A stretch of DNA of 38,011 nt from a virus, in IMG/VR virus record IMGVR_UViG_3300031951_000515, positions 1 to 38,011 of that record. One strand, written 5' to 3'. Positions 10,213-38,011 of this stretch are shown piece by piece; the first letter of the stretch is position 1; every line of letters begins with the position of its first letter. The translations under genes and the position numbers were made by a program. A model generated the notes under the pieces. It was not told where the DNA came from and did no database searches. It was given only the letters and a program-made list of their open reading frames with translations.

Positions 10213-10490
10213 CTGAAATCGCGCAATGGGTCGCCAATAACGGACTGGCAGTTGTAATCGTGATCGCAGGAGGAATCGCCATATGGCGCACTGCGGGTTG
10301 GCTCGCAGTAAATGCGATTACGCCGCTAAAAGATGCGTTTATTGCGCACCTCAACAGTATCGGCATATTCATGAAGGCAACTACCGAATCCCTCGAGCTA
10401 ACCGCAAAATCGATGGACACGATCAGCGAGCAGCTTAAAGGGATACGCAAAGACATCGACACGATGTCGAAGCGTGAGGAAGTGCCGTGA
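10209..10490 (+). CDS. Small membrane protein with coiled coil
   Basis: A 93-residue protein: one membrane segment ('NGLAVVIVIAGGIAIWRTAG'), then a helical, coiled-coil-prone tail ('MKATTESLELTAKSMDTISE'). The form fits a phage holin or a membrane partner, without a family match. It overlaps the preceding gene by four bases (ATGA) and the following gene by four bases (GTGA). Confidence 0.55.
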   Translation: MTEIAQWVANNGLAVVIVIAGGIAIWRTAGWLAVNAITPLKDAFIAHLNSIGIFMKATTESLELTAKSMDTISEQLKGIRKDIDTMSKREEVP

Positions 10491-10852
10491 CCCTCGGAAC
10501 CAAAGCAGGCAGACAAACGATCTACGTCAAACAGGGTTCGGACTGGTCCGCCTCGTTTCAGATCAAAGATGCAAACGGGTCTACCGTCGCGCTGGCAGGC
10601 TCTGCGTTTCAAGGTCATATCCGCAAATCCAAGCAAGCGACGACCCTTGCGGCGACGTTCAGCTTTGACATTGCAGGAAACACAGTGACGTATTTGTTGC
10701 CGCGTGCAATTTCGTCCGCAATGCTTGCTGGGGAGTCCGAGTCTGACCCGGAGTCGAAATATGTGTACGACATCGAATGGACGAAGCCAGACGGAACAGT
10801 CGATCGAATCCAAGAAGGTGTGCTGATTCTTTCCCGTGAAGTAACCAGATAG
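10487..10852 (+). CDS. Putative virion protein with beta-sandwich N-domain
   Basis: A 121-residue protein with GTG start overlapping the previous stop. The pattern 'IYVKQGSDWSASFQIKDANG' ... 'GHIRKSKQATTLAATFSFDI' ... 'YVYDIEWTKPDGTVDRIQEG' is that of short beta-sandwich proteins found in phage baseplates and tail tips (BppU-like N-domains). It begins the block of surface and fibre-like genes. Family membership is tentative. Confidence 0.55.
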   Translation: MTLGTKAGRQTIYVKQGSDWSASFQIKDANGSTVALAGSAFQGHIRKSKQATTLAATFSFDIAGNTVTYLLPRAISSAMLAGESESDPESKYVYDIEWTKPDGTVDRIQEGVLILSREVTR

Positions 10853-10862
10853 GAGTTTTTCA

Positions 10863-11267
10863 ATGGCTATTCAGTTTTCAACTACCGTGCGCAACGCTCG
10901 GCTTGACCAAGTCGAGACAACCATCGGGACAGCCCCAACGCTCGAGATCCGCACCGGCACGCCTCCGGCCAACTGCGCCGCAGCGGACACCGGCACTGTG
11001 GTCGCAACGCTTACGCTCCCATCCGATTGGATGGCTGCGGCGGCTTCCGGCAGCAAGGCAATCAGCGGCACTTGGCAAGATTTGTCCGCCGACGCGACTG
11101 GCACGGCAGGCCATTTTCGCGTGAAGGCCGGAGCAACAACGCATATACAAGGTACGTGTTCTTCGACCGGCGGTGGTGGAGACATGGAAATTTCCCCCAA
11201 TGCGTCGGTTACGGCTGGGCAGAGCTTTACCGTATCGACGTTTACTTTTTCGGACGGGAATGCCTAA
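10863..11267 (+). CDS. Putative virion structural protein
   Basis: A 134-residue, Ala/Thr/Gly-rich protein with AGGAG at 10851-10855. It begins 'MAIQFSTTVRNARLDQVETT' and carries 'APTLEIRTGTPPANCAAAD', wording common in small phage surface proteins. Predominantly beta, no signal peptide. The surrounding genes are all virion-type. The exact location in the particle cannot be told. Confidence 0.6.
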   Translation: MAIQFSTTVRNARLDQVETTIGTAPTLEIRTGTPPANCAAADTGTVVATLTLPSDWMAAAASGSKAISGTWQDLSADATGTAGHFRVKAGATTHIQGTCSSTGGGGDMEISPNASVTAGQSFTVSTFTFSDGNA

Positions 11268-16823: not shown

Positions 16824-17659
16824 TGTACCGAAACACAAACGCAAACGTGAAGGTATTCGCCTTCAACCGCAACACCTCGCAGCCACAACTGGGCGATGCG
16901 GCGAACATTACGTGTCGTTTCTCTTTAGACAACGGCGCACGAACCGCGCTGAACGACACAAACCCAGTCGAACTAGAGGATGGGTACTACCTCTTCGACG
17001 TACAGCAGACGGAAAACAACGGGGCTACTGTGGACTTTTTCCCGGAGTCCACCACGGCCAATATCCAGGTTATTCCCGTCGAGCATTCGCGATACACGCG
17101 AGACACGCTCACTGCGCTTTCGGATTCGGTTTCCGCCTCAATCCTGTCCAACATACTCGGGCGATTTGCTCTGTCGAGTTCCGTTAGCGGGAGCGCAGGC
17201 GTAGCAACACCGCTCGTCACGGTCTCTGAGCGGGAATCGCTTGGGCCGATGTATATTGGAGCGTTTTCGCAGTATCTAAAAGTTGACAATGAAATTGTTT
17301 TCACCATCAACGCCAACGCCAAGAACGCGACTGGGCGCTTGGTGTTTACGGCGAAGCCGACCGTCACAGGTGCGCAGAACACGATCGCTATCCAGGTCGA
17401 TTCCTCGTTCGGACTCCGGATCCCAACGGGCGGCAGTTTTGTTGCGGGCGATGCGGCGCTCGTAGGTGTGAGTGCTGGTGGGAACCCGATCCGCCAAGTG
17501 AAATTGACCATGAACGCCCGATCGCTATCGGCTTTAGCGTCTGGACGTTTCTATTTTGACATCAAACGCTGCGACACTTCGCCCGAAGCGCACTGGATCA
17601 TTGCTACTGGCATCCTCGACTTCTCGCAGCCGATCAACAATACCACCACTTGCATATGA
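16823..17659 (+). CDS. Putative virion protein, 278 aa
   Basis: From ATG 16823 (AGGAG at 16811-16815). The N-terminal third ('NVKVFAFNRNTSQPQLGDAA', 'NITCRFSLDNGARTALNDTN') is a beta domain seen in small phage surface proteins. A central helix ('LTALSDSVSASILSNILGRF') follows, then a second beta domain. No enzyme motif. Its stop overlaps the terminase start as ATGA. Confidence 0.6.
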   Translation: MYRNTNANVKVFAFNRNTSQPQLGDAANITCRFSLDNGARTALNDTNPVELEDGYYLFDVQQTENNGATVDFFPESTTANIQVIPVEHSRYTRDTLTALSDSVSASILSNILGRFALSSSVSGSAGVATPLVTVSERESLGPMYIGAFSQYLKVDNEIVFTINANAKNATGRLVFTAKPTVTGAQNTIAIQVDSSFGLRIPTGGSFVAGDAALVGVSAGGNPIRQVKLTMNARSLSALASGRFYFDIKRCDTSPEAHWIIATGILDFSQPINNTTTCI

Positions 17660-19122
17660 TAGCGGACGCAACATCGATCGAAATTGGACCTCAACCCGGC
17701 CCGCAAGACCAGATACTGCGGACCAGCGCGGACATCGCAATCTATGGCGGTGCGGCTGGTGGCGGGAAGACCTACGCGCTTTTGCTCGATGCTCTCCGAG
17801 GTATAGACGATCCGCACTGGGCTCCCGTTATATTTCGCAAGACGTACAAGCAGATCACCGCAGCGCAGGGGTTGTGGGACAAAGCCTGCGAACTGTACCC
17901 GCTATTCGGCGGTCGGATGCGCAGCGCCTCGATGGATTGCAAGTTTCCGAGTGGAGCCCGCATCATTTTCAGCCACATGGAACACGAACAAGACAAGCTG
18001 CAATGGCAGGGTACTGAGATCGCGTTCATCGGATGGGACGAACTGACGCATTTCTCGAGCGGGCAGTTCTGGTATCTGGTCTCGCGAGCTAGGTCCATGG
18101 GTACCATTGATCCCTACATCCGCGCCACATGCAACCCGGAACCGGGAACGTGGGTAGCAAGCCTCTTGGAATGGTGGATCGATCCCGTATTGGGCACGGC
18201 AATCCCGGAGCGCTCCGGTGTGATGCGGTACTTCTGCCGGGCGGCTGACGACTCGCTACTGTGGGCGGATACGCGAGAGGAACTGTTGGGACGCGGCTCC
18301 AAGCCGCTATCGTTCACCTTCGTCCCAGCCACCCTCCAAGACAATCCGGCACTCTTGGCGAAGGATCCCGATTACGCGGATCGACTAGCGGCGCTCCCTC
18401 GAGTGGAGCGGGAAGCGCTGCTCGGTGGGAACTGGCTTTACCAAGCGGCTGGGATCTACGATCGCGATTGGTTCTTGACGTACAACGTCCTGCCCGATGG
18501 CAAAATCCAGGCGATGCACCATGGAGACGTGCTCGAGATCGATCCAGGTCGGATGCGACGGTTCGCGGTGATCGACACTGCGGGAACCTCGAGGGAACGA
18601 GCAGAGCAGGATAGGGGCAAGGAGCCGTCCTGGTCGGTAGTCCAGGTGTGGGACTACTTCCGCCCCGCCCACATGATGTTCCTGCGATCGACTTGCCGAA
18701 TCCAGGCCGAGTGGCCGGAAATGATTAGCCGGTTCAACGATCATTTGCAGTCGATGAACGTCCCGGTCGTCTACATTGAGAACGCTCACTTCGGACCTGT
18801 CGCAGCCAAGGAAATCAAGGGACGCAAAACACGTCTCATCGGACCCAAAATCCCCGGCATGGCAGAGAACCACCGAGGGGCAAAACTTGAGCGAGCGGTC
18901 GCAGCGGGGGCAATCTCGCGCGTTGAGGACGGCTTGGTCCGGATACCGGCGACCGGCGAAAAGTGGGTGAGAGATTACCTCATTGAGCACACGGCATGGC
19001 AGGGGCGACCAGACGAGGTATCCGACCAGATCGACGGCACATCGTATGCGGTTTACGTTTCAAAGGAGCTTCAAGCCCAGCAATGGGGAGGCATCATCCA
19101 AGGGAGGCACGGCACAAAATGA
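17656..19122 (+). CDS. terL: Terminase large subunit
   Basis: A 488-residue DNA-packaging motor. The ATPase domain has Walker A GGAAGGGKT (31-39), Walker B IAFIGWDE (122-129) and the coupling motif 'IRATCNP' (about 155-161). The nuclease domain begins 'RRFAVIDTAG' with D307, followed by an acidic/His region ('PVVYIENAHFGPVAAKEIKG') and a C-terminal Asp ('DEVSDQIDG'). Length is normal. It cuts concatemers and pumps DNA into the prohead through the portal. The start at 17656 gives an ATGA overlap; a TTG six bases earlier is possible. Confidence 0.93.
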   Translation: MIADATSIEIGPQPGPQDQILRTSADIAIYGGAAGGGKTYALLLDALRGIDDPHWAPVIFRKTYKQITAAQGLWDKACELYPLFGGRMRSASMDCKFPSGARIIFSHMEHEQDKLQWQGTEIAFIGWDELTHFSSGQFWYLVSRARSMGTIDPYIRATCNPEPGTWVASLLEWWIDPVLGTAIPERSGVMRYFCRAADDSLLWADTREELLGRGSKPLSFTFVPATLQDNPALLAKDPDYADRLAALPRVEREALLGGNWLYQAAGIYDRDWFLTYNVLPDGKIQAMHHGDVLEIDPGRMRRFAVIDTAGTSRERAEQDRGKEPSWSVVQVWDYFRPAHMMFLRSTCRIQAEWPEMISRFNDHLQSMNVPVVYIENAHFGPVAAKEIKGRKTRLIGPKIPGMAENHRGAKLERAVAAGAISRVEDGLVRIPATGEKWVRDYLIEHTAWQGRPDEVSDQIDGTSYAVYVSKELQAQQWGGIIQGRHGTK

Positions 19123-19444: not shown

Positions 19445-20623
19445 ATGGGCAAGGTGTTCCGTAAAGCGGTTCTGTCGGTCAACGAGTACCAGAGCGGAGA
19501 TGGGTCCGTCACGGTTACTTCCGATCGGCTGCGCCATTGGGAAGACCAGTTCCAGCGGTTGAAGGATGCAGGCTACGCGGTTCCGATGCACTGGAACCAT
19601 GCGGAACTCGATGATGTCGAAATGCTCTCTCCGATCGCCATGGACTCCCTGACACGTCGCGACACTCGCGGCGCACACAACACCGAAGGGCGCATGGTCG
19701 ACTTTAAGGTGACACCGGACGGAAGATCCGCCGAGATCACCGTGGAGATCCTGACCCCGAGCGCCATCGAAAAGGTGGAAGCCAACTCGGTCTATGTGTC
19801 GCCGGTGATTTTTCCTGAGTTCATGGACGGACATGGGAACAGTTACGCGGACGTGATTACGAGTGTCGATTTGGTCGATTACCCGGTCGATCATTCCCAA
19901 GGCCCATTTCTACCAGCCGAAGTCGATGCAGCAATCCCAGCCTTAATGGGATGCGGCATTCGGATGGGGATCAAACCAACCATTTTTACTCCCAAGGTGC
20001 TTCGCATGGACATGGCTTCCGATACCAACATGGCGGCTCCCGCAGCCCCTCCCGGAAATGAGATGAATGATGGCGGTAGTGATGCCGACTCCATCGTCAA
20101 GATGATCGTCGACGTGATGCAGGAAGTCGGAGTGCAACTCCCCGAAGACACAAGCGCCGCGAATATCGTCGACAACATTCGCATGGTGCTCGGCAACGGC
20201 GGGCAGGGTGGCGGCAACCCTGACAATGGGACCGTGGCTGTCTCTCCTGAGATCCAAACCATGTCCGCTATCGTCCGCAACTCTCGAGCCTACGCCGAGC
20301 GAGCGTATCACCGAGAACTGCTCGGACAACTCGAATCGCTGCGAGACCAAGGAAAAATTCTCGATGAGGAGTTCAGTTTGTACGCTGCTCGGGTCGCTGC
20401 CCAGCGACTCTCGCTCGATGCGTACAGCAAACCGAAAACCGGAGACGTGGAACGCTTCATGGATTCGCGGAAAGTCATCCCAGTTGGCACGTTCAAGACG
20501 GCGACGTTTCGCTCTGGAGGGGGGTCCAAGCTGGCTCGGATGAGCGTAGCGGAACCGAAGAATCCGGAGGTTCTGACACCTGAACGCGAAGCGTACCTTC
20601 TCAAACTCATAAACGGCAACTAA
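19445..20623 (+). CDS. Prohead protease with scaffold-like C-terminus
   Basis: A 392-residue protein. The N-terminal ~155 residues resemble phage capsid maturation proteases of the Mu I type: 'AVPMHWNHAELDD' (H49, H52), 'GRMVDFKVTPDGRSAEITVE', and 'NSVYVSPVIFPEF', where S119 is the likely nucleophile. The rest is Met/Pro/Gly linker, then helical ('LLGQLESLRDQGKILDEEFS', 'LYAARVAAQRLSL') and ends basic, like a scaffold fused to its protease. Position between terminase and capsid fits. No clear ribosome binding site precedes the ATG. Confidence 0.72.
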   Translation: MGKVFRKAVLSVNEYQSGDGSVTVTSDRLRHWEDQFQRLKDAGYAVPMHWNHAELDDVEMLSPIAMDSLTRRDTRGAHNTEGRMVDFKVTPDGRSAEITVEILTPSAIEKVEANSVYVSPVIFPEFMDGHGNSYADVITSVDLVDYPVDHSQGPFLPAEVDAAIPALMGCGIRMGIKPTIFTPKVLRMDMASDTNMAAPAAPPGNEMNDGGSDADSIVKMIVDVMQEVGVQLPEDTSAANIVDNIRMVLGNGGQGGGNPDNGTVAVSPEIQTMSAIVRNSRAYAERAYHRELLGQLESLRDQGKILDEEFSLYAARVAAQRLSLDAYSKPKTGDVERFMDSRKVIPVGTFKTATFRSGGGSKLARMSVAEPKNPEVLTPEREAYLLKLINGN

Positions 20624-21166: not shown

Positions 21167-22318
21167 ATGCCGAACATTTTCCAGGATATTTTCAAACCGC
21201 AGGTACTCACCAAGGTTATCAGCCAACGAGTTGAGGCGTCTGGATCTCTGCTCAAAGAATTTGGTGTGCAGCCCGGCGGACCAAACGAGACGAACATGGG
21301 TCATGGGCGTTTGGGAGCGTACCACATTTTTAACAACACTTTGAAAACAGCGCAGGGGCGAGCGCCCGGAACGGCTGCTGGGCGAATGCAAATGCAGATT
21401 GCCTCCCGCGTACCGTTCGAGTACCCGCGAATGCACAGTTCGATCCCGCTCCTGGCCGAGCAAGTCAACAACATTGGACGCATTGACGATCCAGCTACGC
21501 GCGACAAAGCAGGCGCAAAGATGATCCAGATGCAGACTGGGTACCTCGCGCAACTTGCAGCCAACTGGCGAACCGCGATGCTGGTCGGGATGCTGCGTGA
21601 CAGCCTGTACTACAAGATTGTCGGCGATTCGTGGTATTGGACTTACTCCAGTTCCGGCGCGGCCGGGCAACTTCAAACGCGAGTACCCGCAGGAAACAAG
21701 AGCCAGTTGAACATGACAGGCGGTGGAAACATTCTTGCAACATCGTGGGCCACCACGGCGTCTGCCGACATTCCGAGCAACCTCTATTCGATCCATGCAG
21801 CCTTTCAGCGGTTGACGGGATCAGGGCTTGCAAAAATTGTGACCACCTCGCAAGTCTGGTCACTGGTGCTGAAAAACGACGCAGTGCAAGAGGCACACGG
21901 TACGGCGAATCAGCCTTACGAGATCATTTCGAAAGAGACAGCGAGCGGCCCAGACGGGAAGCCGGTCCAAAATTTCAAGGCTCGGTTGTCCTTCATGCCG
22001 TGGTGCGAGTGGTGCATCACCGACGAAGGTCTCGAGATCGGGGAGCCGGGGTCAGAAGTTTGGACACCGCACGTCCCTGCGAACACCGCGTTCTTTGTCG
22101 CGTCAGACACCGTGACAGGCGGATCGGACATCGAGTGCTATATCGCGGGTGAGCCCGTCGCAGAGTACGACGGCGGACCCAAGACCGAGCGATTCGGCCT
22201 GTCGGCATGGTCGCGCGAAATCAGCAACCCAACCAGCACCGAACTGTTTGTCTTGGACAACGCTTTGATGCTTCACCAAGTCCCAATGAACCTCGCAATT
22301 GGAACCGTGGTGTTCTAG
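21167..22318 (+). CDS. Major capsid protein (gpE-like)
   Basis: A 383-residue HK97-fold type capsid protein in the lambda gpE-like group. It begins 'MPNIFQDIFKPQVLTKVISQ', has 'RVPFEYPRMHSSIPLLAEQV', a long spine region, 'IVTTSQVWSLVLKNDAVQEA', and the late 'NPTSTELFVLDNALMLHQVP' strand set typical of the family's C-terminus. Genomic place (protease, decoration, capsid, head-tail genes) is classical. It forms the icosahedral shell. Confidence 0.88.
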   Translation: MPNIFQDIFKPQVLTKVISQRVEASGSLLKEFGVQPGGPNETNMGHGRLGAYHIFNNTLKTAQGRAPGTAAGRMQMQIASRVPFEYPRMHSSIPLLAEQVNNIGRIDDPATRDKAGAKMIQMQTGYLAQLAANWRTAMLVGMLRDSLYYKIVGDSWYWTYSSSGAAGQLQTRVPAGNKSQLNMTGGGNILATSWATTASADIPSNLYSIHAAFQRLTGSGLAKIVTTSQVWSLVLKNDAVQEAHGTANQPYEIISKETASGPDGKPVQNFKARLSFMPWCEWCITDEGLEIGEPGSEVWTPHVPANTAFFVASDTVTGGSDIECYIAGEPVAEYDGGPKTERFGLSAWSREISNPTSTELFVLDNALMLHQVPMNLAIGTVVF

Positions 22319-22340: not shown

Positions 22341-22835
22341 GTGGCAATTACTTGGAATTATGCGACTCCCGAAGACGTGACCAACTTCTTTGGGGACACT
22401 GGGGTAGCAGCGTTCGCTGCGCATGATCTGCGTGGTTCAGATGCCACGCTCGAGGACTGCATTGCCCAAGCCACCGACGAAATCAACCTCTACGTGCTAC
22501 GCCGCTACGAGGAAGAGGGGGTAAAGACCAACCGGATGCTGCGTCAATGGTGCGTGGTGTTGTCGGCTGTCTATCTGTGCGAACGCCGGGGAAACCCGGT
22601 CCCTGAGTCTTTGGTCGCTGAGTACCAGCGGATCGTCGAAAAGCTACCGCTCATCATGCGCGACGAGATGCGGATCCCAGGCGTTCGGCTCAAGGGAATC
22701 AACGTCCCGATGTTTAGCAACATGCACATCGATCGCCGGTACGCACGGCGGCAACAGCGGGTCGCGATCAATTCAACCAACATGCCCAAGGAACGCCCAC
22801 AAGACACGGAGATTACCCGCGTTGGCTACTACTAG
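22341..22835 (+). CDS. Head-tail connector (DUF1320/Mu gp36-like)
   Basis: A 164-residue protein from GTG 22341 (CGGAG at 22331-22335). 'ATPEDVTNFFGDTGVAAFAA' and 'IAQATDEINLYVLRRYEEEG' match the DUF1320-type head-tail adaptors, which form a ring below the portal. The C-terminal part is more basic. Located right after the capsid gene as expected. Confidence 0.75.
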   Translation: MAITWNYATPEDVTNFFGDTGVAAFAAHDLRGSDATLEDCIAQATDEINLYVLRRYEEEGVKTNRMLRQWCVVLSAVYLCERRGNPVPESLVAEYQRIVEKLPLIMRDEMRIPGVRLKGINVPMFSNMHIDRRYARRQQRVAINSTNMPKERPQDTEITRVGYY

Positions 22836-23655
22836 GGCATATTTCCGAGGCGACAAACATCAAGCAGCGGCGATGGTGCGCCGTGTTCACGCTGCGTTGG
22901 TCGGGCAAGCTCCCGACGTAGCAAACACGGCTAGAGGTGTTTTTACCGCACTAGGGTTTGCTGCACTTTCGGATATTCACGCGGACTTCGTTCGCAAGGC
23001 TCGAGGGGGTGTCGGCGAAGATGGCGTGAAATGGGCTCCCCTGAAGCCTGCGACGTTAGCCTACTCCCGGCGATTTGGACCAGGGGAAAAGACTCAACTC
23101 AAGCAGGCGGCTGGGCTAGGTCGTGGACATCGACACGCCCCAGTCGGAACCGGGCTGTTGTCGGCCGCGCAGCTTCGGCAATGGAGACTGTATTTTCGTC
23201 GCAATCTAGCATGGCTCATCACCAAGTACGATCCAGAAACAGCCAAGTCGATCGCGGCGGGCATGGCATGGAATCGCATCAAGGCCGAGGGCGGAAAAAC
23301 CAAACTCCAGGTTTACGGGAATCGCCCGCATGAAATCCTGCGCGATACAGGCGTTTTGCTAAATTCGCTGTCTCCCGGAGAACTGGGTAGCGATGGTGTT
23401 TCCTATCGACCACCGCAGCCCGATGCCGATGGCGGGCAGATTTTCAAAACGATCGCCAACGGTGTAATTGTTGGAACCAACGTCAAATACGCCGCAGCGC
23501 ACAACTGGGGCGCGCCAAAGCGGAAACTGCCAGCACGTCCCTTCTTGCCGAAAAAGTGCCCGCAAGTGTGGCTTGAGCGATGGTTGGGCGCGTTGGAGCG
23601 TGCCTTGGCAGCCGGATTGACGCGAGCCGTCAGTGAGGGGGCTCGAGGTGCTTAG
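22822..23655 (+). CDS. Virion morphogenesis / tail completion protein
   Basis: A 277-residue protein with TTG start at 22822, overlapping the previous gene by 14 bases. 'IHADFVRKARGGVGEDGVKW' followed by 'APLKPATLAYSRRFG', and 'ILRDTGVLLNSLSPGELGSD' with 'YAAAHNWGAPKRKLPARPFL' are the typical landmarks of phage virion-morphogenesis proteins (Mu G/P2 S type). It is longer than usual because of a ~90-residue insert. It likely helps join or complete the tail. Confidence 0.75.
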   Translation: MATTRAYFRGDKHQAAAMVRRVHAALVGQAPDVANTARGVFTALGFAALSDIHADFVRKARGGVGEDGVKWAPLKPATLAYSRRFGPGEKTQLKQAAGLGRGHRHAPVGTGLLSAAQLRQWRLYFRRNLAWLITKYDPETAKSIAAGMAWNRIKAEGGKTKLQVYGNRPHEILRDTGVLLNSLSPGELGSDGVSYRPPQPDADGGQIFKTIANGVIVGTNVKYAAAHNWGAPKRKLPARPFLPKKCPQVWLERWLGALERALAAGLTRAVSEGARGA

Positions 23656-25056: not shown

Positions 25057-27513
25057 ATGGATGGCGCGCAGTTTCAAATTGTTTTGGTCGACGAAACCAC
25101 CTCGGGAACGTCGACCGCAACAGCGGAACCAGCGAGGCGAGAGGCCGCACCAAATCCGCCTCCCTCGCGTCCGGATCCTGCGCCACCGCTCCGTGCTGCC
25201 GTCGCACCAACGCAAACCGATCGGCCTGCAAACGTAGCCGAAACTCGTGCCACCCCGGCAAACGAGCGGGCCGATCGGGAACACACCGCAGCAAGGAGAG
25301 TCCGCCGGCCGACCGAGGGCGATGTGCGGAAAGAGTTAGTCAAGAACGTGCACGAAGCAACGAAGATCGTCTTCGACGCATCTCACTTAAAGGAAAGCCT
25401 GCATCCTTTTTTCGCTGCGATTGCCGAGTCGCAGAAAGTGTTTAATGGCGTTGTCGCAGCCGCGAAACTGCTAACTCCCCTGCGACCAAACGCAACGCCT
25501 CCAGCGCCACCACCGGCAGCAAGGGTAGAGCCTCCGACGCCAACGCCTCCAGCGCCACCACCGGCAGCAAGGGTAGAGCCTCCGACGCCAACGCCTCCAG
25601 CGCCACCACCGGCAGCAAGGGTAGAGCCTCCGACGCCAACGCCTCCAGCGCCACCACCGGCAGCAAGGGTGGAGCCTCCGACGCCAACGCCTCCAGCGAC
25701 ACCACCGGCAGCAAGGGTGGAGCCGGTATCGCCAGCGAAGCCAACAGAAACGCGCCCGGAGCCTCGAGATGAGGATGCGCTATTGGCCGCTTGGGAGGAA
25801 TACACCACCCGGACGAAACCAGACAGCCCCGCGCCGCAGCCGCAGCCGCAGAAACAGCCTGAGACGAAGCCGACTGCCACCAAGCAAGAGCCTGAGCAAC
25901 CTTTTTGGCGATCGATAGCGGCAAGCATCTCCAACCTCGTAGGAGCCAAAGACGATCCCGAACCGGCCAGAGAACCACGGCCGAAACCTTTGGGGAAGCA
26001 AGAGATTGCCGTCAAGGTGGATGCTCCGAAGCAAACTCCGGAAGACGAATATCTGTTCGGTCGCGAGAAACTGGACAACTCTCCAAATCCAAAACAGCAA
26101 GAACCAGAGAAACCAAAACCACATGCCCCTGTGATTTCATTCGGGCTCGACTCCATAAGCAAGTCAATCAGTGGTGAGATCCGAGGAGCCTTATCTTCGG
26201 TCGCATCGCTGTTTTCCAAGCGGGACAACACCCCAAAACCAGAACCTACAGCGGCAAAAACCGACGACCAGTCCAATTCTCGACGCGACAGATCGCTCGA
26301 TGAACCCAGGGCAGATACTTCCAGAAACGACGAAGTTGGCGACGAAACGCGACTCGCACAGATCGACCGAAACACCGATCCGGAGCACCTCGAGACCGCA
26401 GCCGATCGCATCGTGAAGGCAATTGAGAGTGTATGGGCCGAGAACGAAAAGACGAAACAGATCGCGGAGCAGACCGGGAACGCAAACGAGAGCCTTCATG
26501 ACAACACGCCATCGCGCATCGAAACGCCAGCCGATCCGCTTCCCGCATCTCCGATAGAAAATCGCCCGGAACCTCCCTCGAAGCAAACCCCGGAAGACGA
26601 ATTCCTGTTCGGTCGCGAGGACTCACAGGAAGTGAAGCCAAAATCCGAAGGCGATGGAGGTGGCGTGAAGCCACCCGGTCTCGCGAACAAAGCGCTCGAT
26701 GCGGTCAAGGCCGACATCCCAGTACAGGCGGGAGCAAGAGTCGAGGGAGCGGCTGTGGCAGAGGAAGCCGCCGTAGCAACGGAGGGCTCGGCAGCGATGG
26801 AAGCCGCAGCATCTCGAGCAGCGCAAGCTCTGGCGCGAATTGGCCCAGCGCTTGGCCCGGTGGCTGTCGCAGCGGGAGTGGTCGTAGGATCGCTTGCAGC
26901 GGTCGCAGCGGCAGGGTATTTGGTCTACAAAGCCTTCGATGCGATCGGAGACGCAGCCGCCAAACAAGCAGATGAACTTGCTGGCTACAGCGCAGACATC
27001 GCCAAGCAGCGCGCCGAAACCGACGTTCGGCGTCAGATGCGACTGATCGACCGAGCTAACGAGCGCGGCGAAACGCTTGCTCGCGTCGGAGATGCAAAAG
27101 ATCGCCTAGATGAAGCGATCAACAATTTAGGTGATAGAGTCACCGATCAATTTGTGGATTTGGCTGATCGTCTACTTCCCGCAGTGGAGTTACTGATTGG
27201 CGGAATAAACACCACCGCCAATTTTGTTGAGACTATTGGCACATCGTGCGGAGTCATTGAGGCGACGGTTATCGACTGGCTAAATCTACTAGGCGACGAA
27301 GCGGCGGAAGACGCCAAATGGCGTGACGCAAACGAAAAACACATGCAGAAGGTCGATAAGTTGATGGGGCGGCAAGACGCCAGGGAAAGACGCAGAGAGG
27401 AAAAGGAATTCAAGGATCCGCTGCTGAATCTGCTCCATAACGCGATGGGCGCTCCGAGGCAGATGGATCCTGCCCTAATGCAGCAACTCATTGCGCAGGC
27501 GAGGGGACTCTGA
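25057..27513 (+). CDS. Large repeat-bearing tail protein, possible tape measure
   Basis: An 818-residue protein following the tail tube gene. The first ~560 residues are mostly disordered and charged, rich in Pro, Lys, Glu and Asp, with five 16-residue repeats of the form 'TPPAPPPAARVEPPTP' at about 147-226. The motif 'KQTPEDE(Y/F)LFGRE' occurs twice (about 325 and 509). Then come an Ala-rich helix, a hydrophobic membrane-like stretch ('VAVAAGVVVGSLAAVAAAGY'), and a helical, coiled-coil-prone C-terminus. Place, length and the hydrophobic C-terminal part suit a tape-measure protein, although the disordered half is atypical. A minor structural protein is the alternative. Confidence 0.6.
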   Translation: MDGAQFQIVLVDETTSGTSTATAEPARREAAPNPPPSRPDPAPPLRAAVAPTQTDRPANVAETRATPANERADREHTAARRVRRPTEGDVRKELVKNVHEATKIVFDASHLKESLHPFFAAIAESQKVFNGVVAAAKLLTPLRPNATPPAPPPAARVEPPTPTPPAPPPAARVEPPTPTPPAPPPAARVEPPTPTPPAPPPAARVEPPTPTPPATPPAARVEPVSPAKPTETRPEPRDEDALLAAWEEYTTRTKPDSPAPQPQPQKQPETKPTATKQEPEQPFWRSIAASISNLVGAKDDPEPAREPRPKPLGKQEIAVKVDAPKQTPEDEYLFGREKLDNSPNPKQQEPEKPKPHAPVISFGLDSISKSISGEIRGALSSVASLFSKRDNTPKPEPTAAKTDDQSNSRRDRSLDEPRADTSRNDEVGDETRLAQIDRNTDPEHLETAADRIVKAIESVWAENEKTKQIAEQTGNANESLHDNTPSRIETPADPLPASPIENRPEPPSKQTPEDEFLFGREDSQEVKPKSEGDGGGVKPPGLANKALDAVKADIPVQAGARVEGAAVAEEAAVATEGSAAMEAAASRAAQALARIGPALGPVAVAAGVVVGSLAAVAAAGYLVYKAFDAIGDAAAKQADELAGYSADIAKQRAETDVRRQMRLIDRANERGETLARVGDAKDRLDEAINNLGDRVTDQFVDLADRLLPAVELLIGGINTTANFVETIGTSCGVIEATVIDWLNLLGDEAAEDAKWRDANEKHMQKVDKLMGRQDARERRREEKEFKDPLLNLLHNAMGAPRQMDPALMQQLIAQARGL
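25495..25734 (+). repeat. Five tandem 48-base repeats
   Basis: Five copies of a 48-base unit begin at 25495, 25543, 25591, 25639 and 25687. The first three are essentially identical; the last two carry GGGTGGAG in place of GGGTAGAG, and the fifth has further changes at both ends. They encode Pro/Ala repeats. Near-identity points to recent expansion by slippage or recombination, so copy number may vary between isolates. Confidence 0.9.
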
Positions 27514-29537: not shown

Positions 29538-29770
29538 AGCTAGGAATCAATCCGTTTGACTTGACCAGCGCACAGATTGTGGCGCTGGAAGAATTGATGC
29601 CGTCGATTCGTGCCAAGAAGCGGATCGATGCAGGGAACTATGACGCGACAGACTACCAAGCAGTTTATCAACTGTGGCTCGAAGCTTACGGCGATGAACA
29701 AATCGCAGCAAACGCTCGAAACCAGGCTGTCCAACTGCTAGTCGATAAACATTGTGGGAAGATGCCATGA
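29226..29770 (+). CDS. Frameshifted long chaperone (gpGT-like product)
   Basis: A -1 slip at A-AAA-AAA (29501-29507) would add 87 residues to the first 94, giving 181. The -1 frame is open from the slip to TGA 29768-29770 and reads 'KYERRIRLGVELGINPFDLT' then 'SAQIVALEELMPSIRAKKRI', a coherent helical domain. Many tailed phages make a short and a long tail chaperone in just this way, with the long one binding the tape measure. Unlike the usual order, the candidate tape measure lies upstream. Confidence 0.58.
29501..29507 (+). promoter_or_regulatory. Slippery heptamer A-AAA-AAA for -1 frameshifting
   Basis: The heptamer is in the right phase (ATA AAA AAA AAT) for tandem slippage, and the downstream frame is the -1 frame. 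The A run is nine long, so transcriptional slippage could act too. Only a weak hairpin is visible just downstream. Confidence 0.6.
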
Positions 29771-32700
29771 GTACCGTACCTGACCAGACTCGAAACGACA
29801 GCCGAAACGATGGACGCATCAGCGACGCGATAAAAAAGCCTGTCGCGAAGACGAAGGGCTACTCTCCGATCCAAACATGGTGGCTACGTCGGCACCAAAA
29901 GCTACCCGTGATGTCGTTCCAGGTCATCGAGCAGATCCTACTCGACGAAACGATCCAGATCGGACTTGCAGCCCGCCGCGCGGCGATCCAAGGATGCGAG
30001 TTTGGCTATGAGATGAACGGCCAATGGCAGATCGGCGTGATGTGCCAGGATGAAGCGGTCGGAGCGTGGGTAATGCGGCAGATCCGCAAACTCTGGTCCT
30101 GTGCGCTTGAGCACATTTCCTCAGCGCAGGTTTACGGCTGGAGCGGCATGGAAGTCATCTGGGAGCGATCCGAGGAATTCGGGACGTGGGAAATCGCTAC
30201 GATCGAACAGCGACACGCAAACGACGTGCGGGTGTTGGTCGCCAATGAAACCGGACGACCGTGCGGCGTTCGTTTTATGCACGTCAAGAGCGCCCTTGAA
30301 GGCTACGTCGACCTACGGTTTCCAGAGGCGTTTTTCCATAGCTACGACGCGCAGCCGGGCGAACTCTACGGGCGATCTGTCCTCACAGGGGCCTACCGCG
30401 CATGGGCGGATAAGCACTTTGACGGCGGTGCGATCGATGTCCGTCGATTGTTTATGCACAAGGATGCTTATGGTGGTGCCGACCTGCGCTATCCCGAGGG
30501 CTCGACCGACGTGGGAACCATCGACGCACCGCACGAAATTAGTAACCGCGAGCTAGCGCGAGAAATCGTCGAACAACTCGAAGCGGGAGGTGTGACGACC
30601 ACTCCAGCCCAATACGACGACAAAGGGAACCCGATGTGGAATCTCACACGCGCCACCGTCCCGTCGAACCCCTCGCACATCCTTCAGTACCCTGGGGATC
30701 TCGATGGGGAGATGCTACGCGGCATGTTCGTACCCGATGGAGTTCTCAAAGCCGACGATACGGGATCCTGGCAGGGTAGGTTAATCCCCATGGGGATCCT
30801 CTACGCGAACTTAGACCCATGGGTGGAAGTGATCCTGCGAGACATCAAGGAGCAACTGCTCGAGCCGGGCATCGTCAATAACTTTGGACGCATGATTCCG
30901 TTTGACGTGTCCCACAAGCCACTCGCCAAGCAAGCCCTTGAGCAGCAACGCGGACCCTCCATGGGAGGCATGGGAGGCATGGACCCATCCATGGGCGGCA
31001 TGGATCCCGGCATGGATCCCATGGGCGGCATAGACGATGGCAGCGATCCCAGCATGGGCCAGGATCCAACCCTGATGGGTGTGAAGTTCGATGCAGTGCA
31101 AGCCGTTGGGGAAGGCGTTCTATCGGCGTCCAATGTTGTTAAGGCAGCAATGTTCGCCCTTGGAGAGACCGAGCCACAACTGATGACAGCGATGCGAGCG
31201 CCAAAAGGCTACACCAAGGAAAAGCCCCTAGTAATTGCTGGCAATGAATACCATGGTGGGCAGTTCGTGCCATCGGATGTTGTCGATAAAGCCACGCCCG
31301 AGCAGCGCAAGGAACTTGAGAGCGGCGAAAAAGCGTCGTCTGATGAGGAACCCAAACCGAATCCCAAGCCGCTCCCTGTCAAAGCCCCCACTCTTGATGG
31401 CAAAAGCAAGTTTCACGATCGATGGTCGCTGACATTGCAGGCCGGGCACAGGCTGACGCTGAAGAACGGAAACAAAGTGCAAATCATTAGCCAACGCAAA
31501 GGCGGCAAGCTGTTGTACACGGTTCGGCATTACGATCCATCGCGCAAGCGTACTGATTACGATCGAACCTTCACACACATTGCCGATGCGGCGGACTTTG
31601 CTTCGATGGTATTGCACCATCACTCCAGCCAGACCGCACCAAAAGCGACAAAACCAGCGCAGACGAGCGCAGCACCCAAACCCAAGCGAGGAAGCCTAAA
31701 CGAGCGGAACTACTCATACAAGTCCACCAAGTTCTTTTCAAGCGGCGTGAAATCTAAGTTCAAGGATAACCTGGAGGCTTTGCGTACTCTCAAGTTGATC
31801 GAAGACGAGGATCGCGAAGCAACCCCGGAGGAAAAAGAAAAGATTTCTAAGTTCGTTGGGTGGGGACAGATGCCAGGACTGTTCAACGACTACCACGAAC
31901 GTCTTTATTACGATCGCGACGACCTATCCGAAGAACTTCGGAGGATCGCAACCAACTCCAAGGAACAGGACAAATGGGACAAGGAGCGGAAGGAACTCAA
32001 AACCCTGTTGGGCCAAGATGGCTACGAAGCGGCTAGAGCATCTGTAATTAACGGGCATTATACCCACCCCGAAGTGGTCAAGAAGCAATGGGAGATGGCA
32101 AAGCGGCTAGGCTTCACAGGCGGAAAAATGCTGGAGCCCGCCGTTGGTGGAGGTTACTACCTTGGGTTCATGCCGGAAGACGTAAAAAGCAATACGGCCA
32201 TCACGGCGGTTGAGATGGATCCAGGATCGGCGACGATCGCGAAAGCACTCTACCCGGATGCCAATGTAGTTGTTTCTCCGTTCGAGGAATACAAGACACC
32301 AGACAACTACTTCGATCTTGTTGCGACCAATGTTCCATTCGATGAATCGCAAATCATACGGGATTCCAAGTTAGGCAATTTGCGTCCCAACCTCCACGAT
32401 TACTATTTCCTTCGCTCAGCCCAAACGACCAAGCCGGGTGGGTTGGCAATGCTCATTACGAGCGCTGGGACGATGGACAAGATTTCCCCCGATGTTCGGA
32501 AGGCGATCGACGCAGACATGGAGTTTGTGTCTGCCGTTCGATTCCCAGGGACCATGCACAAAGAGAACGCTGGAACCGAAGTCGTTACCGATTTGGTGAT
32601 TCTTCGCAAGAAGGGAGCGGTTCCCGAAGATATCCCTGATGAAGTGCCACCGGAAGCTCTGCCACCAGGAAACCGCTGGGCGGAACAATCATTCGAGAGA

Positions 32701-35700
32701 TTCACAAACGAGGAACACAATGCAAGGCTCTTGAAAGAGAGGTATGGGGGAAACCTTCCCGACTCTGTGCAGCCTGAAACAAAACAACCAGGTTTCACAG
32801 GAATAACGGTGGACTCACTAGGACGGCTCTACCACTGGAAAGATGGCAAGAGAGTCCCTGCGCCGCAATGGGATGACACGGTGGAAGTCCCCGATCCGCT
32901 GGGAGGAGATCCGATTCGAGTCAACCGTTACTTTGCAGAGCATCCAGAACAGATCCTCGGAACGCTGGATCGATCTGGAACCATGTACACGGGCGGAATG
33001 AAAAACGTCCAAGCAACCGACGACTTTGAGACCCTGTTCCAAGATGCTATCGATCGTCTCCCGGAAAACATCGTTCGAACCAGCCAAGCTAGCGTTCGCG
33101 GACCATCGATACCAGACGAGCCGGAACGCATTTTGACGGCTACCAAGCACAACGAAGGAGAAACGGTCATTCACGATGGCGGGCTATACACCTACGTCAA
33201 CGGAGCCCTGGAGCCACATCGATTCAAGAATGAAAAGAAAGAGGTCTTAATGTCCATGATCGGTATTCGCGACAAAGTTCGAGAACTCGTCGCAGCCGAG
33301 CGAGCCGGGAAAGATGGTGCCGCAATCCGGTCGGAACTCAACGCGATGTACGATTCTTTCCGGGGCAAGTACGGGCTACTCCATGACCATGCAGCGGAAC
33401 TCAAGGGCGACCTGGACCGCCCGATGATTATGTCCCTGGAGTCCTACGATAAGAAATCCAAGGAGTTCCGTAAAGCAGATGTGTTTGAGAAGAGCACGGC
33501 ACGCCGCGCTACCAGAGTCTCCGAGGCTAAAACCATCGAGGATGCCGTTGGCGTGTCCATGCACGATGCAGCATCGATCGATGTCGCTCGGATTTCATCT
33601 CTGCTTGGCAAGACTGTGGAAGATGTAGGACAGGAACTTACCAAGAAGGGATTGGCCTATCTAAACCCGAACGGTGACAAGTGGGAATCTCGCGATGAAT
33701 ACCTATCAGGAAACACCAGGGAAAAACTTGCCCAGGCAATTGAGGTTGCAAAGACAGACGATCGATACCTACCCAACGTGGAAGCGTTGCGAGCAGCGCA
33801 GCCAGAAGACGTTCCGATCCAGGACATCTCGGTGCGTATGGGCTCACCCTGGGTTCACCATGAAGTTTATGAAGCGTTTGTGGCAAGTGCGGTAGGTATC
33901 AACCGATATGGATCCTCGGGAATCAAATTTCGGTACAGCGACAGCGCGGCATCCTGGCTGACGGAGTTGCCTTCCAGCGTAAACTCGGGTAGAGCAGCGG
34001 AGGCTTGGTCGATCTATGACTCCGAAGGCGACATTCGCGTAAAGTTCAGTGAAATCGTCGAAGCAGCGATGACGCAACGAGCGATCAACGTCTGGGAGTA
34101 CGATGGCGAAACCAAATTTCTTAATCGCGAGTTGACCGACGCGGCACAGTCAAAGGTGGAAGAGCTGCAAGAGAGGTTCAGCGAGTGGGCTCTGAGTCTG
34201 CCGCAAGTATCGCAGGTTCTTGAAAAGTCCTACAACGAAAAGAACAACAATATCAAAGAGCGGACATTCGATGGGAGTCACCAAACATTCCCAGGAATGG
34301 ACGAAAAGTACGCAGCCCGCCTGTATGACATACAAAAGAATTTCGTCTGGCGCGTAGTGACGACAGGTGTTGGGCTTGCGGCACACGAAGTCGGAACAGG
34401 TAAAACTACGAGCATGGTCGCAGCGGCGATGGAGTGTCGTCGTTTAGGGCTTGCGAAAAAACCCGCGTTTGCCGTACTGAAATCCACCATAGAGCAATTC
34501 ACGCGCGAAGCCCAAGAGCTTTACCCGGAAGCCAGGATTCTCTCCCTAAGCGATATGTTCGACAAGGAATCGCGAAGAGAGACACTGCATCGAATTGCGA
34601 CTGGCGATTATGACATGATTATCATGACGCACGAAAACCTTGAAGGGATGCGACTGCGACCAGAGAGCGAACAAGCGTTCATCCAAGAGGAAGTGTCAGA
34701 CTTGGAAGCGGCCATCATCGATGCACATGCAGAGAAGGCAGCCGCAAAGGGTAAATCGGAGTCCAAGATTGGCGACAAGATCGTCAAGGAATTGGAGAAA
34801 CGGAAAAACAAGTTGCTTGAGCGATTGCAGAAGTCGCAAAACCCTGACGACAAAGACCCGATTTTCTTTGAGGATTCCGGGATAGATATGCTGTTTGTGG
34901 ATGAGGCTCATAAGTTCAAGTCGCTCCCGGCCAATACCTCGCGAAACTACGCTGGCATCTCCAAGCAGGAAGCGAACCGAGCGATGGACATGCTATTCAA
35001 GTGCCGTTGGTTGCAAAAGAACAACAATGGACGCGGAGTGGTATTTGCGACCGGAACACCGATTAGCAACTCCATGACCGAACTTTTCAACATGCAGCGG
35101 TATTTGCAGTACGATGAACTCAAGAATCGCGGGCTACACAAGTTCGACGCATGGGCGGATACGTTTGGAGTTCTAACTAACGATCTTGAGTTCAAGCCGA
35201 GCGGAGACATCGCACGCAAGCAACGCTTTGCGAAATTTGTGAATGTTCCTGAATTGAGGTTACTAGCCTCGCAATTCATGGACGTTCAGATGGCAGACAA
35301 CCTCCGCAAGCCAGACGGGTCGCCAGTAGTGAAGCGACCGCGAAAACATATACGTTTGATCGTTTCCGAAGAGACCGACCGCGTAAAGGAGATGCAGGCA
35401 GAAATCGCAGCCCGAGCCGCCGCGATTAAAGGGCAACGCAAGTTTGAAAAAGGCGAAGACAACCCCTTGAAAATCATGGGCGATGCCAAAATGGGATCGA
35501 TGGATCCACGGCTCGTTCACAAAGAGGTCGGAGATGACCCACAGAGCAAGGCGAACAAAGCAATCGCCGAAGTCATTCGGATGTATCACGAACATCCAGG
35601 AACAGTTCAGGCTGTCTTTAGCGATCTGGGAGTTCACGCAAAGGAAAACAGGATCAGCCTGTTCGACGACATGCGATCCAAGTTAATTGCACAAGGCATT

Positions 35701-36807
35701 CCCGCAAACGAAATAGCGGTGTTGTCGGATCCCGACATGAAAGACGCGGAAAAAGACCGGATAGCTACCAAGCTTCGCACGGGAGACGTTCGCATCGCGT
35801 TTGGTTCGACGCAGACCTTGGGAACCGGGATGAATATCCAGGACAAGCTAAAGGCGGTCCACCACTTGGATATACCTTACAACCCAGCGGCGCTCGAGCA
35901 ACGCAATGGACGTGCTTACAGGTCAGGAAACGCGAATGAAGAGATCGACGAGTTCCGTTATACAACTCTCGGATCATCTGACCCAATGTTCTGGCAGATC
36001 AACGCAAGGAAAACCAATTTCAAAGACCAGTTCATGCTTGGCAAGGCTGGTCGCGAAATGGAAGACCTCCGGTCGGACGAAATGACACCTGAACAGCTCG
36101 TTGCAATTTCGACGGGCGATCCACGACGATTAGAACGCATCGAAATGGACCAGCAGTACAACAAGCTCCAACGCGCCAAGAGTCGCCACGCTATTGATGT
36201 CGCTCGCATGAGGACATTGGTAGAGAAAGCTGACAGCAGGCAGGAACGCTTGGTTCAAGACATTCAGGAGCACGCCGAGGATTTGGCGATGTTGAACTCT
36301 CAGGAAGACTTCGTTTATGAAGCCCCGTATTTGCGAGGGTACCGCGAAAGCCAATGGACAGCGCCTACGCCGTGGGAAAAAACGACCGTCATTAAGGAGC
36401 GAAAGAAGGCAGAGGAATCGCTCAAGGAAGCAATCGAACACTACAACGGAGAACAGGAAAACAAGACCTACTACTCTAACTATGATCGCAGTAAAGGATT
36501 GCCGGTTGCCAAGATTAAGGGATTCGAAGTGAAGATCCTCGATGACGGTCGCGTGTCCGTTCAGGGTCCAAGCGGAAGAGTCCAGTTTGCGCAGCCTTCG
36601 TTGCAGTCCATCGAAGCGGCAATAAAGAAAGTCAAAAAGCGACACGAAGAGGCGGTGGAAGCCTTGAAACAACATGAATCGGAAATTGAGCACTTTAAGC
36701 GGGAAGTGGAGAAACCGTTCCAGTTGCAGGGTAAACTAGATTCGGTACGCAAGAGGCTGATCGAACTGCGTGAAGCCCTTGGCGAAACCGTTAGACCCGA
36801 AGAATAG
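29767..36807 (+). CDS. Portal - adenine methyltransferase - SNF2 helicase fusion (DUF935 + DarB-like)
   Basis: A 2346-residue single frame; the start at 29767 overlaps the previous stop (ATGA). Domains: residues ~15-395 read as a DUF935/Mu-type portal ('TIQIGLAARRAAIQGCEFGY', 'WSGMEVIWER', 'MRGMFVPDG'-like end). A Met/Gly linker spans ~397-438 and a small domain ~479-520 ('KPLVIAGNEYHGGQFVPSDV'). Residues ~646-707 carry 'KFVGWGQMPGLF', followed by an N6-adenine methyltransferase with 'LEPAVGGGYY' (~789) and NVPF (855-858). A SNF2-type helicase has GTGKT (1543-1547), DEAH (1712-1715), 'FATGTPISNS' (~1760) and 'EQRNGRAYRSG' (~2044-2054). A coiled C-terminus follows. Methyltransferase-helicase halves like this (phage P1 DarB) protect incoming DNA from restriction. 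No other portal gene is seen. Confidence 0.85.
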   Translation: MSTVPDQTRNDSRNDGRISDAIKKPVAKTKGYSPIQTWWLRRHQKLPVMSFQVIEQILLDETIQIGLAARRAAIQGCEFGYEMNGQWQIGVMCQDEAVGAWVMRQIRKLWSCALEHISSAQVYGWSGMEVIWERSEEFGTWEIATIEQRHANDVRVLVANETGRPCGVRFMHVKSALEGYVDLRFPEAFFHSYDAQPGELYGRSVLTGAYRAWADKHFDGGAIDVRRLFMHKDAYGGADLRYPEGSTDVGTIDAPHEISNRELAREIVEQLEAGGVTTTPAQYDDKGNPMWNLTRATVPSNPSHILQYPGDLDGEMLRGMFVPDGVLKADDTGSWQGRLIPMGILYANLDPWVEVILRDIKEQLLEPGIVNNFGRMIPFDVSHKPLAKQALEQQRGPSMGGMGGMDPSMGGMDPGMDPMGGIDDGSDPSMGQDPTLMGVKFDAVQAVGEGVLSASNVVKAAMFALGETEPQLMTAMRAPKGYTKEKPLVIAGNEYHGGQFVPSDVVDKATPEQRKELESGEKASSDEEPKPNPKPLPVKAPTLDGKSKFHDRWSLTLQAGHRLTLKNGNKVQIISQRKGGKLLYTVRHYDPSRKRTDYDRTFTHIADAADFASMVLHHHSSQTAPKATKPAQTSAAPKPKRGSLNERNYSYKSTKFFSSGVKSKFKDNLEALRTLKLIEDEDREATPEEKEKISKFVGWGQMPGLFNDYHERLYYDRDDLSEELRRIATNSKEQDKWDKERKELKTLLGQDGYEAARASVINGHYTHPEVVKKQWEMAKRLGFTGGKMLEPAVGGGYYLGFMPEDVKSNTAITAVEMDPGSATIAKALYPDANVVVSPFEEYKTPDNYFDLVATNVPFDESQIIRDSKLGNLRPNLHDYYFLRSAQTTKPGGLAMLITSAGTMDKISPDVRKAIDADMEFVSAVRFPGTMHKENAGTEVVTDLVILRKKGAVPEDIPDEVPPEALPPGNRWAEQSFERFTNEEHNARLLKERYGGNLPDSVQPETKQPGFTGITVDSLGRLYHWKDGKRVPAPQWDDTVEVPDPLGGDPIRVNRYFAEHPEQILGTLDRSGTMYTGGMKNVQATDDFETLFQDAIDRLPENIVRTSQASVRGPSIPDEPERILTATKHNEGETVIHDGGLYTYVNGALEPHRFKNEKKEVLMSMIGIRDKVRELVAAERAGKDGAAIRSELNAMYDSFRGKYGLLHDHAAELKGDLDRPMIMSLESYDKKSKEFRKADVFEKSTARRATRVSEAKTIEDAVGVSMHDAASIDVARISSLLGKTVEDVGQELTKKGLAYLNPNGDKWESRDEYLSGNTREKLAQAIEVAKTDDRYLPNVEALRAAQPEDVPIQDISVRMGSPWVHHEVYEAFVASAVGINRYGSSGIKFRYSDSAASWLTELPSSVNSGRAAEAWSIYDSEGDIRVKFSEIVEAAMTQRAINVWEYDGETKFLNRELTDAAQSKVEELQERFSEWALSLPQVSQVLEKSYNEKNNNIKERTFDGSHQTFPGMDEKYAARLYDIQKNFVWRVVTTGVGLAAHEVGTGKTTSMVAAAMECRRLGLAKKPAFAVLKSTIEQFTREAQELYPEARILSLSDMFDKESRRETLHRIATGDYDMIIMTHENLEGMRLRPESEQAFIQEEVSDLEAAIIDAHAEKAAAKGKSESKIGDKIVKELEKRKNKLLERLQKSQNPDDKDPIFFEDSGIDMLFVDEAHKFKSLPANTSRNYAGISKQEANRAMDMLFKCRWLQKNNNGRGVVFATGTPISNSMTELFNMQRYLQYDELKNRGLHKFDAWADTFGVLTNDLEFKPSGDIARKQRFAKFVNVPELRLLASQFMDVQMADNLRKPDGSPVVKRPRKHIRLIVSEETDRVKEMQAEIAARAAAIKGQRKFEKGEDNPLKIMGDAKMGSMDPRLVHKEVGDDPQSKANKAIAEVIRMYHEHPGTVQAVFSDLGVHAKENRISLFDDMRSKLIAQGIPANEIAVLSDPDMKDAEKDRIATKLRTGDVRIAFGSTQTLGTGMNIQDKLKAVHHLDIPYNPAALEQRNGRAYRSGNANEEIDEFRYTTLGSSDPMFWQINARKTNFKDQFMLGKAGREMEDLRSDEMTPEQLVAISTGDPRRLERIEMDQQYNKLQRAKSRHAIDVARMRTLVEKADSRQERLVQDIQEHAEDLAMLNSQEDFVYEAPYLRGYRESQWTAPTPWEKTTVIKERKKAEESLKEAIEHYNGEQENKTYYSNYDRSKGLPVAKIKGFEVKILDDGRVSVQGPSGRVQFAQPSLQSIEAAIKKVKKRHEEAVEALKQHESEIEHFKREVEKPFQLQGKLDSVRKRLIELREALGETVRPEE

Positions 36808-37189: not shown

Positions 37190-37191
37190 CT

Positions 37192-38011
37192 ATGCCACTC
37201 CAACCCGGAAAGACAATTACCAAAAACGGGAAGACCTACATCCTTAACGAGCACCATCGATGGACGCTCAAGGACAAGCCCGATGCTAATCCTCGTCAGG
37301 CCGCACAGCAAACGCCGCAACAAACGCAACAAAGGGCTCAACCGCAATCGCCGGGTGGGCGAACGGTAGACAGAAAAACTTTTGACGACAGCTACGCCAA
37401 GCAGTCGCAGCCGAAGTTCGATCCGTCTACGGGCATGAAGATGCCAGGAGCGGAAGACATGAAGCTGGACGAAGCAGCTTTTGCTAAGATTGACTCAGGC
37501 CAGATTCATTTAGACATGAAATCGGATCGTAGGATCCAAAAGACGCAATCCGGGTTTCGCGTAAGCGGAATGAAGAGCGATTTCCGTCAGGATCTTTCTC
37601 GGGAAGACTTTATCAAAAAGCATGTATCGCAATCACAGCAACAAGCCAAGCCACCGTCGCAGCCATCACAGCCGCAGCGCAAGCCGAAGGCGTCGCCCAA
37701 GCTCGTTAAGAGCGGCGTTGAGGATGATTTAAATCACGATGGCGTTGCGGATCAGGCCCGCGTAGGTGTCCCCGCATTCGAGGTTCCACCGCCACCGAAG
37801 GAAATTCGCCGTCTTGCCAATTTGACCGGAAAGGCAAAAGCCGCAGAGTCGCATTTCGCGGACGAGTTCGAGCAAGACCCAGACGGCATGGCTGAAAAGG
37901 CCCACATCCTGTTTACAGCATCGCTCAAGGAAGGGGACGCACCTGTTTTCGAAACCGATGCCTGCAAGAAGTTGTCGCCGTACTGGCAAAGCACTGACCT
38001 GGAGCAGAACC
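37192..38011 (+). CDS. Truncated gene for a polyvalent/head-associated protein
   Basis: The frame is open from ATG 37192 to the right edge (273 codons, no stop), so the protein continues beyond the window. It begins 'MPLQPGKTITKNGKTYILNE', has long Gln/Pro-rich disordered stretches, then 'DDLNHDGVADQARVGVPAFE', 'VPPPPKEIRRLANLTGKAKA', and a helical 'DPDGMAEKAHILFTASLKEG'. This assembly style occurs in multi-domain phage proteins delivered with DNA (MuF-like or other polyvalent proteins). The effector domain, if any, lies further right. Confidence 0.6.
   Translation, partial: MPLQPGKTITKNGKTYILNEHHRWTLKDKPDANPRQAAQQTPQQTQQRAQPQSPGGRTVDRKTFDDSYAKQSQPKFDPSTGMKMPGAEDMKLDEAAFAKIDSGQIHLDMKSDRRIQKTQSGFRVSGMKSDFRQDLSREDFIKKHVSQSQQQAKPPSQPSQPQRKPKASPKLVKSGVEDDLNHDGVADQARVGVPAFEVPPPPKEIRRLANLTGKAKAAESHFADEFEQDPDGMAEKAHILFTASLKEGDAPVFETDACKKLSPYWQSTDLEQN

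Follow-up and report, generated by a model that had tools for sequence, protein, structure and literature searches.

A portal gene fused to DarB-like enzyme domains

The window analysed here is the whole record of an uncultured phage, linear and 38,011 bases long; relatives of it are designated below by L-numbers for their loci or contigs. The main genes of the window all lie on the plus strand (Table 1), and they include, besides the features listed, a RecE-like exonuclease, an annealing protein and a replication initiator. The structural block is closed by a single very long gene, which lies far from the terminase. The usual gene order places the portal beside the terminase, as in Gordonia phage Orchid, where the two adjoin. 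The portal is also far from the terminase in those relatives where both genes were found, and the gene after the terminase in the window gave no portal match.

Table 1. Coordinates of the features discussed in the text
Feature	Position	Strand	Remarks
Terminase large subunit	17650..19122	+	phrog_979, E 5e-103
Candidate head protease/scaffold	19445..20623	+	His52 and Ser119 invariant in 16 family members
Likely major head protein	21167..22318	+	phrog_29, E 0.0017
Head-tail adaptor and Neck1 genes	22341..23655	+	phrog_195, phrog_26
Weak tape-measure match	25057-27513	+	Pro/Ala-rich tandem repeat (PPTPTPPAPPPAARVE)
Portal-DarB fusion gene	29767..36807	+	2346 aa, open frame; fusion also in L002 and L005-L008
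Portal core, residues 1-395	29767..30951	+	PF06074 above cut-off; AlphaFold2 model; Foldseek and VIA matches to solved portals
Linker rich in Met/Gly/Asp/Pro, residues 397-437	30955..31077	+	site of the break in DNA identity with L003
Short conserved stretch AVGEGVLSASNVVKAA, residues 446-461	31102..31149	+	counted to the portal, not the cargo
Small connector region 'APKGYTK', residues 471-620	31177..31626	+	recurs in relatives beside ParB-like and DarB cargo
DarB-like adenine methyltransferase, residues 640-960	31684..32646	+	LEPAVGGG, NVPF; PHROG 10089
SNF2-type DNA translocase, residues about 1520-2075	34324..35991	+	GTGKT, DEAH, QRNGR; Pfam
Downstream gene running off the record	37192..38010	+	conserved start, at the point where identity with L003 resumes

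The earlier note on this DNA described one 2346-residue frame joining a portal to a methyltransferase and an SNF2 helicase, and our analysis bears this out. The frame is uninterrupted to the stop at 36807, giving 2351 residues from the TTG at 29752 or 2346 from the ATG at 29767. We found that residues 634-2339 match PHROG 10089 ('DarB-like antirestriction') with 1269 bits and that Helicase_C and SNF2-rel_dom both score above their Pfam cut-offs. All of the catalytic motifs are present: LEPAVGGG at residue 789, TNVPF at 854, GTGKT at 1543, DEAH at 1712 and QRNGR at 2045. BLASTP against P1 DarB gave 30% identity over the methyltransferase. The motif NVPF looks unusual at first, since PMC5512222 gives NPP(Y/F) for enzymes of this kind; it is also the motif of P1 DarB. 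GWGQ precedes the methyltransferase (compare the GXGU of LPD36), and its Q falls outside the G, A and S named in that paper. The cargo is under purifying selection, with dN/dS of 0.20 between the window and L007 and 0.07 between L054 and L057. Between portal and cargo lies a disordered linker with 9 Met and 11 Gly in its 41 residues, and from 31000 to 31750, around the connector, no Pfam match was found.

All members of the family come from metagenome contigs and the linker DNA is repetitive, so we considered whether the fusion might be an artefact of assembly or sequencing. Three contigs, L006, L007 and L008 (2360 aa), carry this fusion in full; in L002 and L005 it is cut only by the end of the available locus sequence. 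Thus a sequencing error joining two genes, which the earlier note had named as one way its reading could fail, is excluded by five further contigs. Many other fusions of the same portal are found, and dN/dS is low on both sides of the junction. With independent contigs refuting it, we give an artefact practically no credence.

The start of the gene downstream of the fusion resembles the extension at the C-terminus of the L009 fusion (...HHRW), and this gene perhaps encodes a second carried protein.

The portal core

Residues 52-218 score 29.6 bits to the Pfam family Portal_Mu (PF06074), whose cut-off is 23.9, and the relative L023 matches positions 4-298 of the 336 in this profile. An AlphaFold2 model of the portal part, built from an alignment of 23 family rows, has a mean pLDDT of 72.9; it is best at about residues 50-210, middling at about 220-340 and weakest in the linker. 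The top Foldseek matches of the model are portals. Using VIA-align, the G20C portal was matched over model residues 46-410 (Z 20.6), and the Mu portal was matched with Z 15.9, model residues 43-409 falling on Mu residues 39-390. The best match in a sequence search against solved structures reached only E of about 0.9, and the kinship to these portals is therefore distant. Direct comparison of the portal family with Mu gp29 by hhalign found no relation (probability 0.8%), and the probable kinship with the Mu portal thus rests on the Pfam profile and the predicted fold. Within the phages collection the portal part had no relative at E 1e-5; relaxing the limit to E 10 brought up annotated portals as weak matches. 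Judged by profile and predicted fold, the N-terminal part is a real portal, as the earlier note had proposed for residues 1-395.

It is apparently also the sole portal of the record, again in agreement with that note. Portal_Mu gave a single match in the window, and the family portal profile gave one match per record in 27 of 27 records, with no second match. Three other portal families (PF04860, PF05133 and PF05136) were absent from all 12 records scanned, which were up to 74 kb long and included the window. Eight other same-strand frames of at least 300 residues in the window gave no portal match; one minus-strand frame of 342 residues lies outside that scan. The linear record carries no exact terminal repeats of 15-60 bases and therefore may be incomplete. 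This leaves room for an alternative in which the portal-like part has no other role than as a tag directing the protein to the capsid, while the gene of the true portal lies beyond the record; the position of the gene at the end of the structural block rather than beside the terminase would fit it. However, purifying selection on the portal part is strong (dN/dS 0.02-0.12), the three other portal families are lacking even in the longer records, and four cargo-free relatives (L053, L056, L058 and L059) consist of the portal alone. We regard a tag as quite improbable.

Exchange of cargo on one portal family

Scans with the portal part identified 37 contigs, near-copies included: 36 viral contigs and one contig (L023) from a Pirellulaceae MAG. 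Extensions beyond the portal are present in 29 of the 37. A DarB-type methyltransferase is found in 12 of these 29 and ParB-like cargo in 14, three contigs having both; among the 23 contigs with one or the other or both, five carry a zeta-type kinase in addition. A 2H phosphoesterase, a topoisomerase IB and a PBECR3 nuclease occur in one contig each, and three of the 29 extensions match no assigned cargo class. The remaining eight contigs are without cargo or not judgeable: L042, L044 and the four cargo-free contigs are short, L061 is cut by the contig end, and L004 has a stop codon that is described below.

The cargo-free portals end just after the stretch AVGEGVLSASNVVKAA. We had taken this stretch as a marker of the cargo junction and dropped that assignment; because it lies near the end of portals with no cargo, it belongs to the portal. 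L042 and L044 are nearly identical to L043 and lack most of its ParB-like cargo from just past the conserved end of the portal; they look like deletion forms of L043. In L041:1-4329 the frame ends a little past the DarB methyltransferase and has no SNF2 part. An assignment of the ParB-like cargo to P1 DdrB was also dropped, the cargo profile having no significant match to DdrB. Positions 954-1352 of 1362 in this cargo fall in phrog_21, which is labelled 'portal protein'; either earlier portal-ParB fusions or a mislabel would account for this, and two phage genes inspected on this question are annotated as hypothetical. Among 392 sampled genomes one, a Planctomycetota MAG, gave a strong match (the Pirellulaceae contig), and two more gave weak ones. 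With a single strongly matching MAG contig, a Planctomycetota host is tentative.

Comparison of pairs of relatives indicates that cargo is swapped independently of the portal. L007 and L009 have portals 99.2% identical and methyltransferases 48.4% identical, while the window and L007 have portals 83.0% identical and methyltransferases 99.4% identical; portal and methyltransferase identities are therefore discordant. At the DNA level, L007 and L009 share about 94-100% identity across the portal gene; the value drops at the linker and exceeds 90% again past the cargo. The window and L003 part at 31042, within the linker, from where the window has DarB cargo and L003 has ParB-like cargo; identity resumes at 37191, the start of the next gene. 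Between the window and L007, most 150-base steps of the portal are 66-89% identical; identity leaps to about 99% near the end of the connector region and from near 31550 through the cargo is mostly 95-100%, the exceptions being a single insertion and a fall to 90-93% around 36000. Consistent with this, dS for this pair is 1.16 in the portal versus 0.13 in the cargo. The breaks in identity thus fall in or near the Met/Gly linker. We also placed cargo labels on a tree of 28 representatives, from which the incomplete L041 and L061 and near-copies were left out and in which eight of 24 inner branches are poorly supported forks. The labels are partly clustered, with 9 changes versus 16 for shuffles, and exchange is therefore frequent but not free.

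The linker is also where portal and cargo could become partly separate products, through an internal start or early termination, so that only some or none of the 12 portal subunits would be loaded. Many relatives have a Met shortly ahead of the conserved stretch, and in the window AGGA lies 10 bases upstream of Met437. In L004 (frame 9983-11161) the portal core ends with an in-frame TAA in place of the Leu codon of L003, and past this stop the frame reopens and encodes ParB-like cargo; the TAA may be a variant, an error or a site of readthrough. However, the ribosome-site signal is weak and no better than at other linker codons, L049 has no Met ahead of the conserved stretch, and the frame of the linker stays open in the other cargo-bearing members. 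Separate products therefore seem unlikely to us.

A proposed route into the head and comparison with known systems

We think it probable that residues 1-395 form a working portal which loads a DarB-type enzyme, and that the enzyme is later cut free and delivered with the DNA as an antirestriction protein. In solved portals the C-terminus faces the interior of the head. A 12-mer ring assembled with its cargo attached would then bring up to 12 copies of DarB into the head, close to where the DNA exits. Cleavage in the linker region by a head protease would set the enzyme free to exit together with the DNA, which it would methylate in the cell ahead of host restriction. These steps of assembly, cleavage, ejection and antirestriction are inferred from known systems. 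Mu gp29 is 512 residues long, and its last 124 residues are reported to be absent from the cryo-EM structure of the virion, which its authors attribute to cleavage by protease I (PMC11915804). This leaves 388 residues, near the length of the core here; the core ends where the Mu portal is reportedly trimmed, and the cargo would therefore replace that tail. According to PMC9024508, the P1 DarB protein is a head component, is loaded via an N-terminal signal and is believed to pass into the cell; the P1 Dar proteins are reportedly co-ejected with DNA (PMC12810830). Together, the trimming of the Mu tail and the packaging and co-ejection of P1 DarB suggest loading by fusion, release by a protease, delivery and methylation. 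The earlier note had held that the fusion must be assembled as such or processed near the Met/Gly linker, and Mu offers a precedent for the removal of the same C-terminal region. Twelve copies of the cargo, at 215 kDa each, would occupy about 3,100 cubic nanometres compared with about 40,600 for 38 kb of DNA; space is therefore no clear obstacle.

The least secure part of the model is the protease step. The candidate protease has no Pfam match, and hhalign did not relate it to the proteases of Mu or Orchid. PHROG protease matches are weak and were obtained for two of its ten relatives (E 0.033 and 0.18), and another relative, L116, matches a 'portal protein' PHROG over its helical half (E 2e-4). 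The structure model of the candidate is poor (pLDDT 43.6), and no cleavage motif was established.

The enzyme might instead stay on the portal and modify DNA during packaging or exit through the channel, since it is covalently attached at the channel vertex and both the methyltransferase and the translocase act on duplex DNA. Yet the 2H phosphoesterase, PBECR3 nuclease and zeta-type kinase of the relatives have no obvious task on DNA in the channel. The co-ejection reported for the P1 Dar proteins (PMC12810830) and the reported loss of the same portal region in Mu (PMC11915804) also argue against it, and we consider a permanently anchored enzyme a minor alternative. Of the interpretation in the earlier note, the union of an apparently sole true portal with a DarB-type pair holds; the part in which the pair would act from a fixed place at the channel seems less likely, unrelated enzymes on the same portal fitting loading and delivery better.

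Release and delivery of the cargo, the reading we favour, can be put more generally. We judge it about an even chance that the portal serves to dock and load, by covalent fusion, a polymorphic set of injected enzymes (DarB, ParB-like, kinase, nuclease, phosphoesterase and topoisomerase), in which the linker would be the point of both recombination and release and at most 12 copies would sit at the DNA exit. To load large helper enzymes into the head, P1 uses packaging signals and partner proteins. If our reading is correct, fusion to the portal would by itself settle how such enzymes are loaded, in what fixed number and where; it would also be naturally suited as a design for bringing proteins into bacteria along with phage DNA. 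The model predicts cleavage of the portal tail, which Mu reportedly undergoes with no purpose stated in the available text of PMC11915804.

Compared with Mu gp29, the fusion shares the Portal_Mu match, the predicted fold over residues 43-409 and a context of head proteins. It differs in carrying about 1950 residues with enzymes in place of a 124-residue tail and in not lying beside the terminase. With P1 DarB it shares an adenine methyltransferase with NVPF and an SNF2 helicase, in a protein that is virion-borne in P1. In contrast, P1 DarB is described as a separate protein that depends on other Dar proteins and is packaged by a short signal at its N-terminus (PMC9024508, PMC12810830), and the N-terminus here is a portal. 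Such a signal is a trait of P1 DarB and is not known to define the wider DarB family. In P1 itself (L093, 10469-19021) darB lies next to the portal gene prt, and the two are divergently oriented. The N-termini of DarB in five phage records contained no portal, two of the five having no match of any kind; a portal of another type may be joined to DarB elsewhere.

Portals fused to small effectors (PBECR, 2H, InPase and Nudix) and judged to be injected have been reported (Iyer et al. 2017, PMC5512222; PMC9503650). The fusions described there carry single small enzyme domains, in contrast to a methyltransferase-helicase of 215 kDa, and in the family studied here the cargo is swapped on one constant portal. 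Our search of the literature, mostly of non-subscription texts, found no portal-DarB fusion and no cargo-swapping portal family. The MuF polymorphic toxins likewise combine an N-terminal head protein with a variable C-terminal enzyme, but here the carrier is the portal itself; a Pfam scan of the fusion up to E 1 gave no MuF family among its matches, although a diverged domain might escape it. Small portal-effector fusions are thus already known, and the portal-DarB fusion and the family that exchanges cargo on its portal are apparently new.
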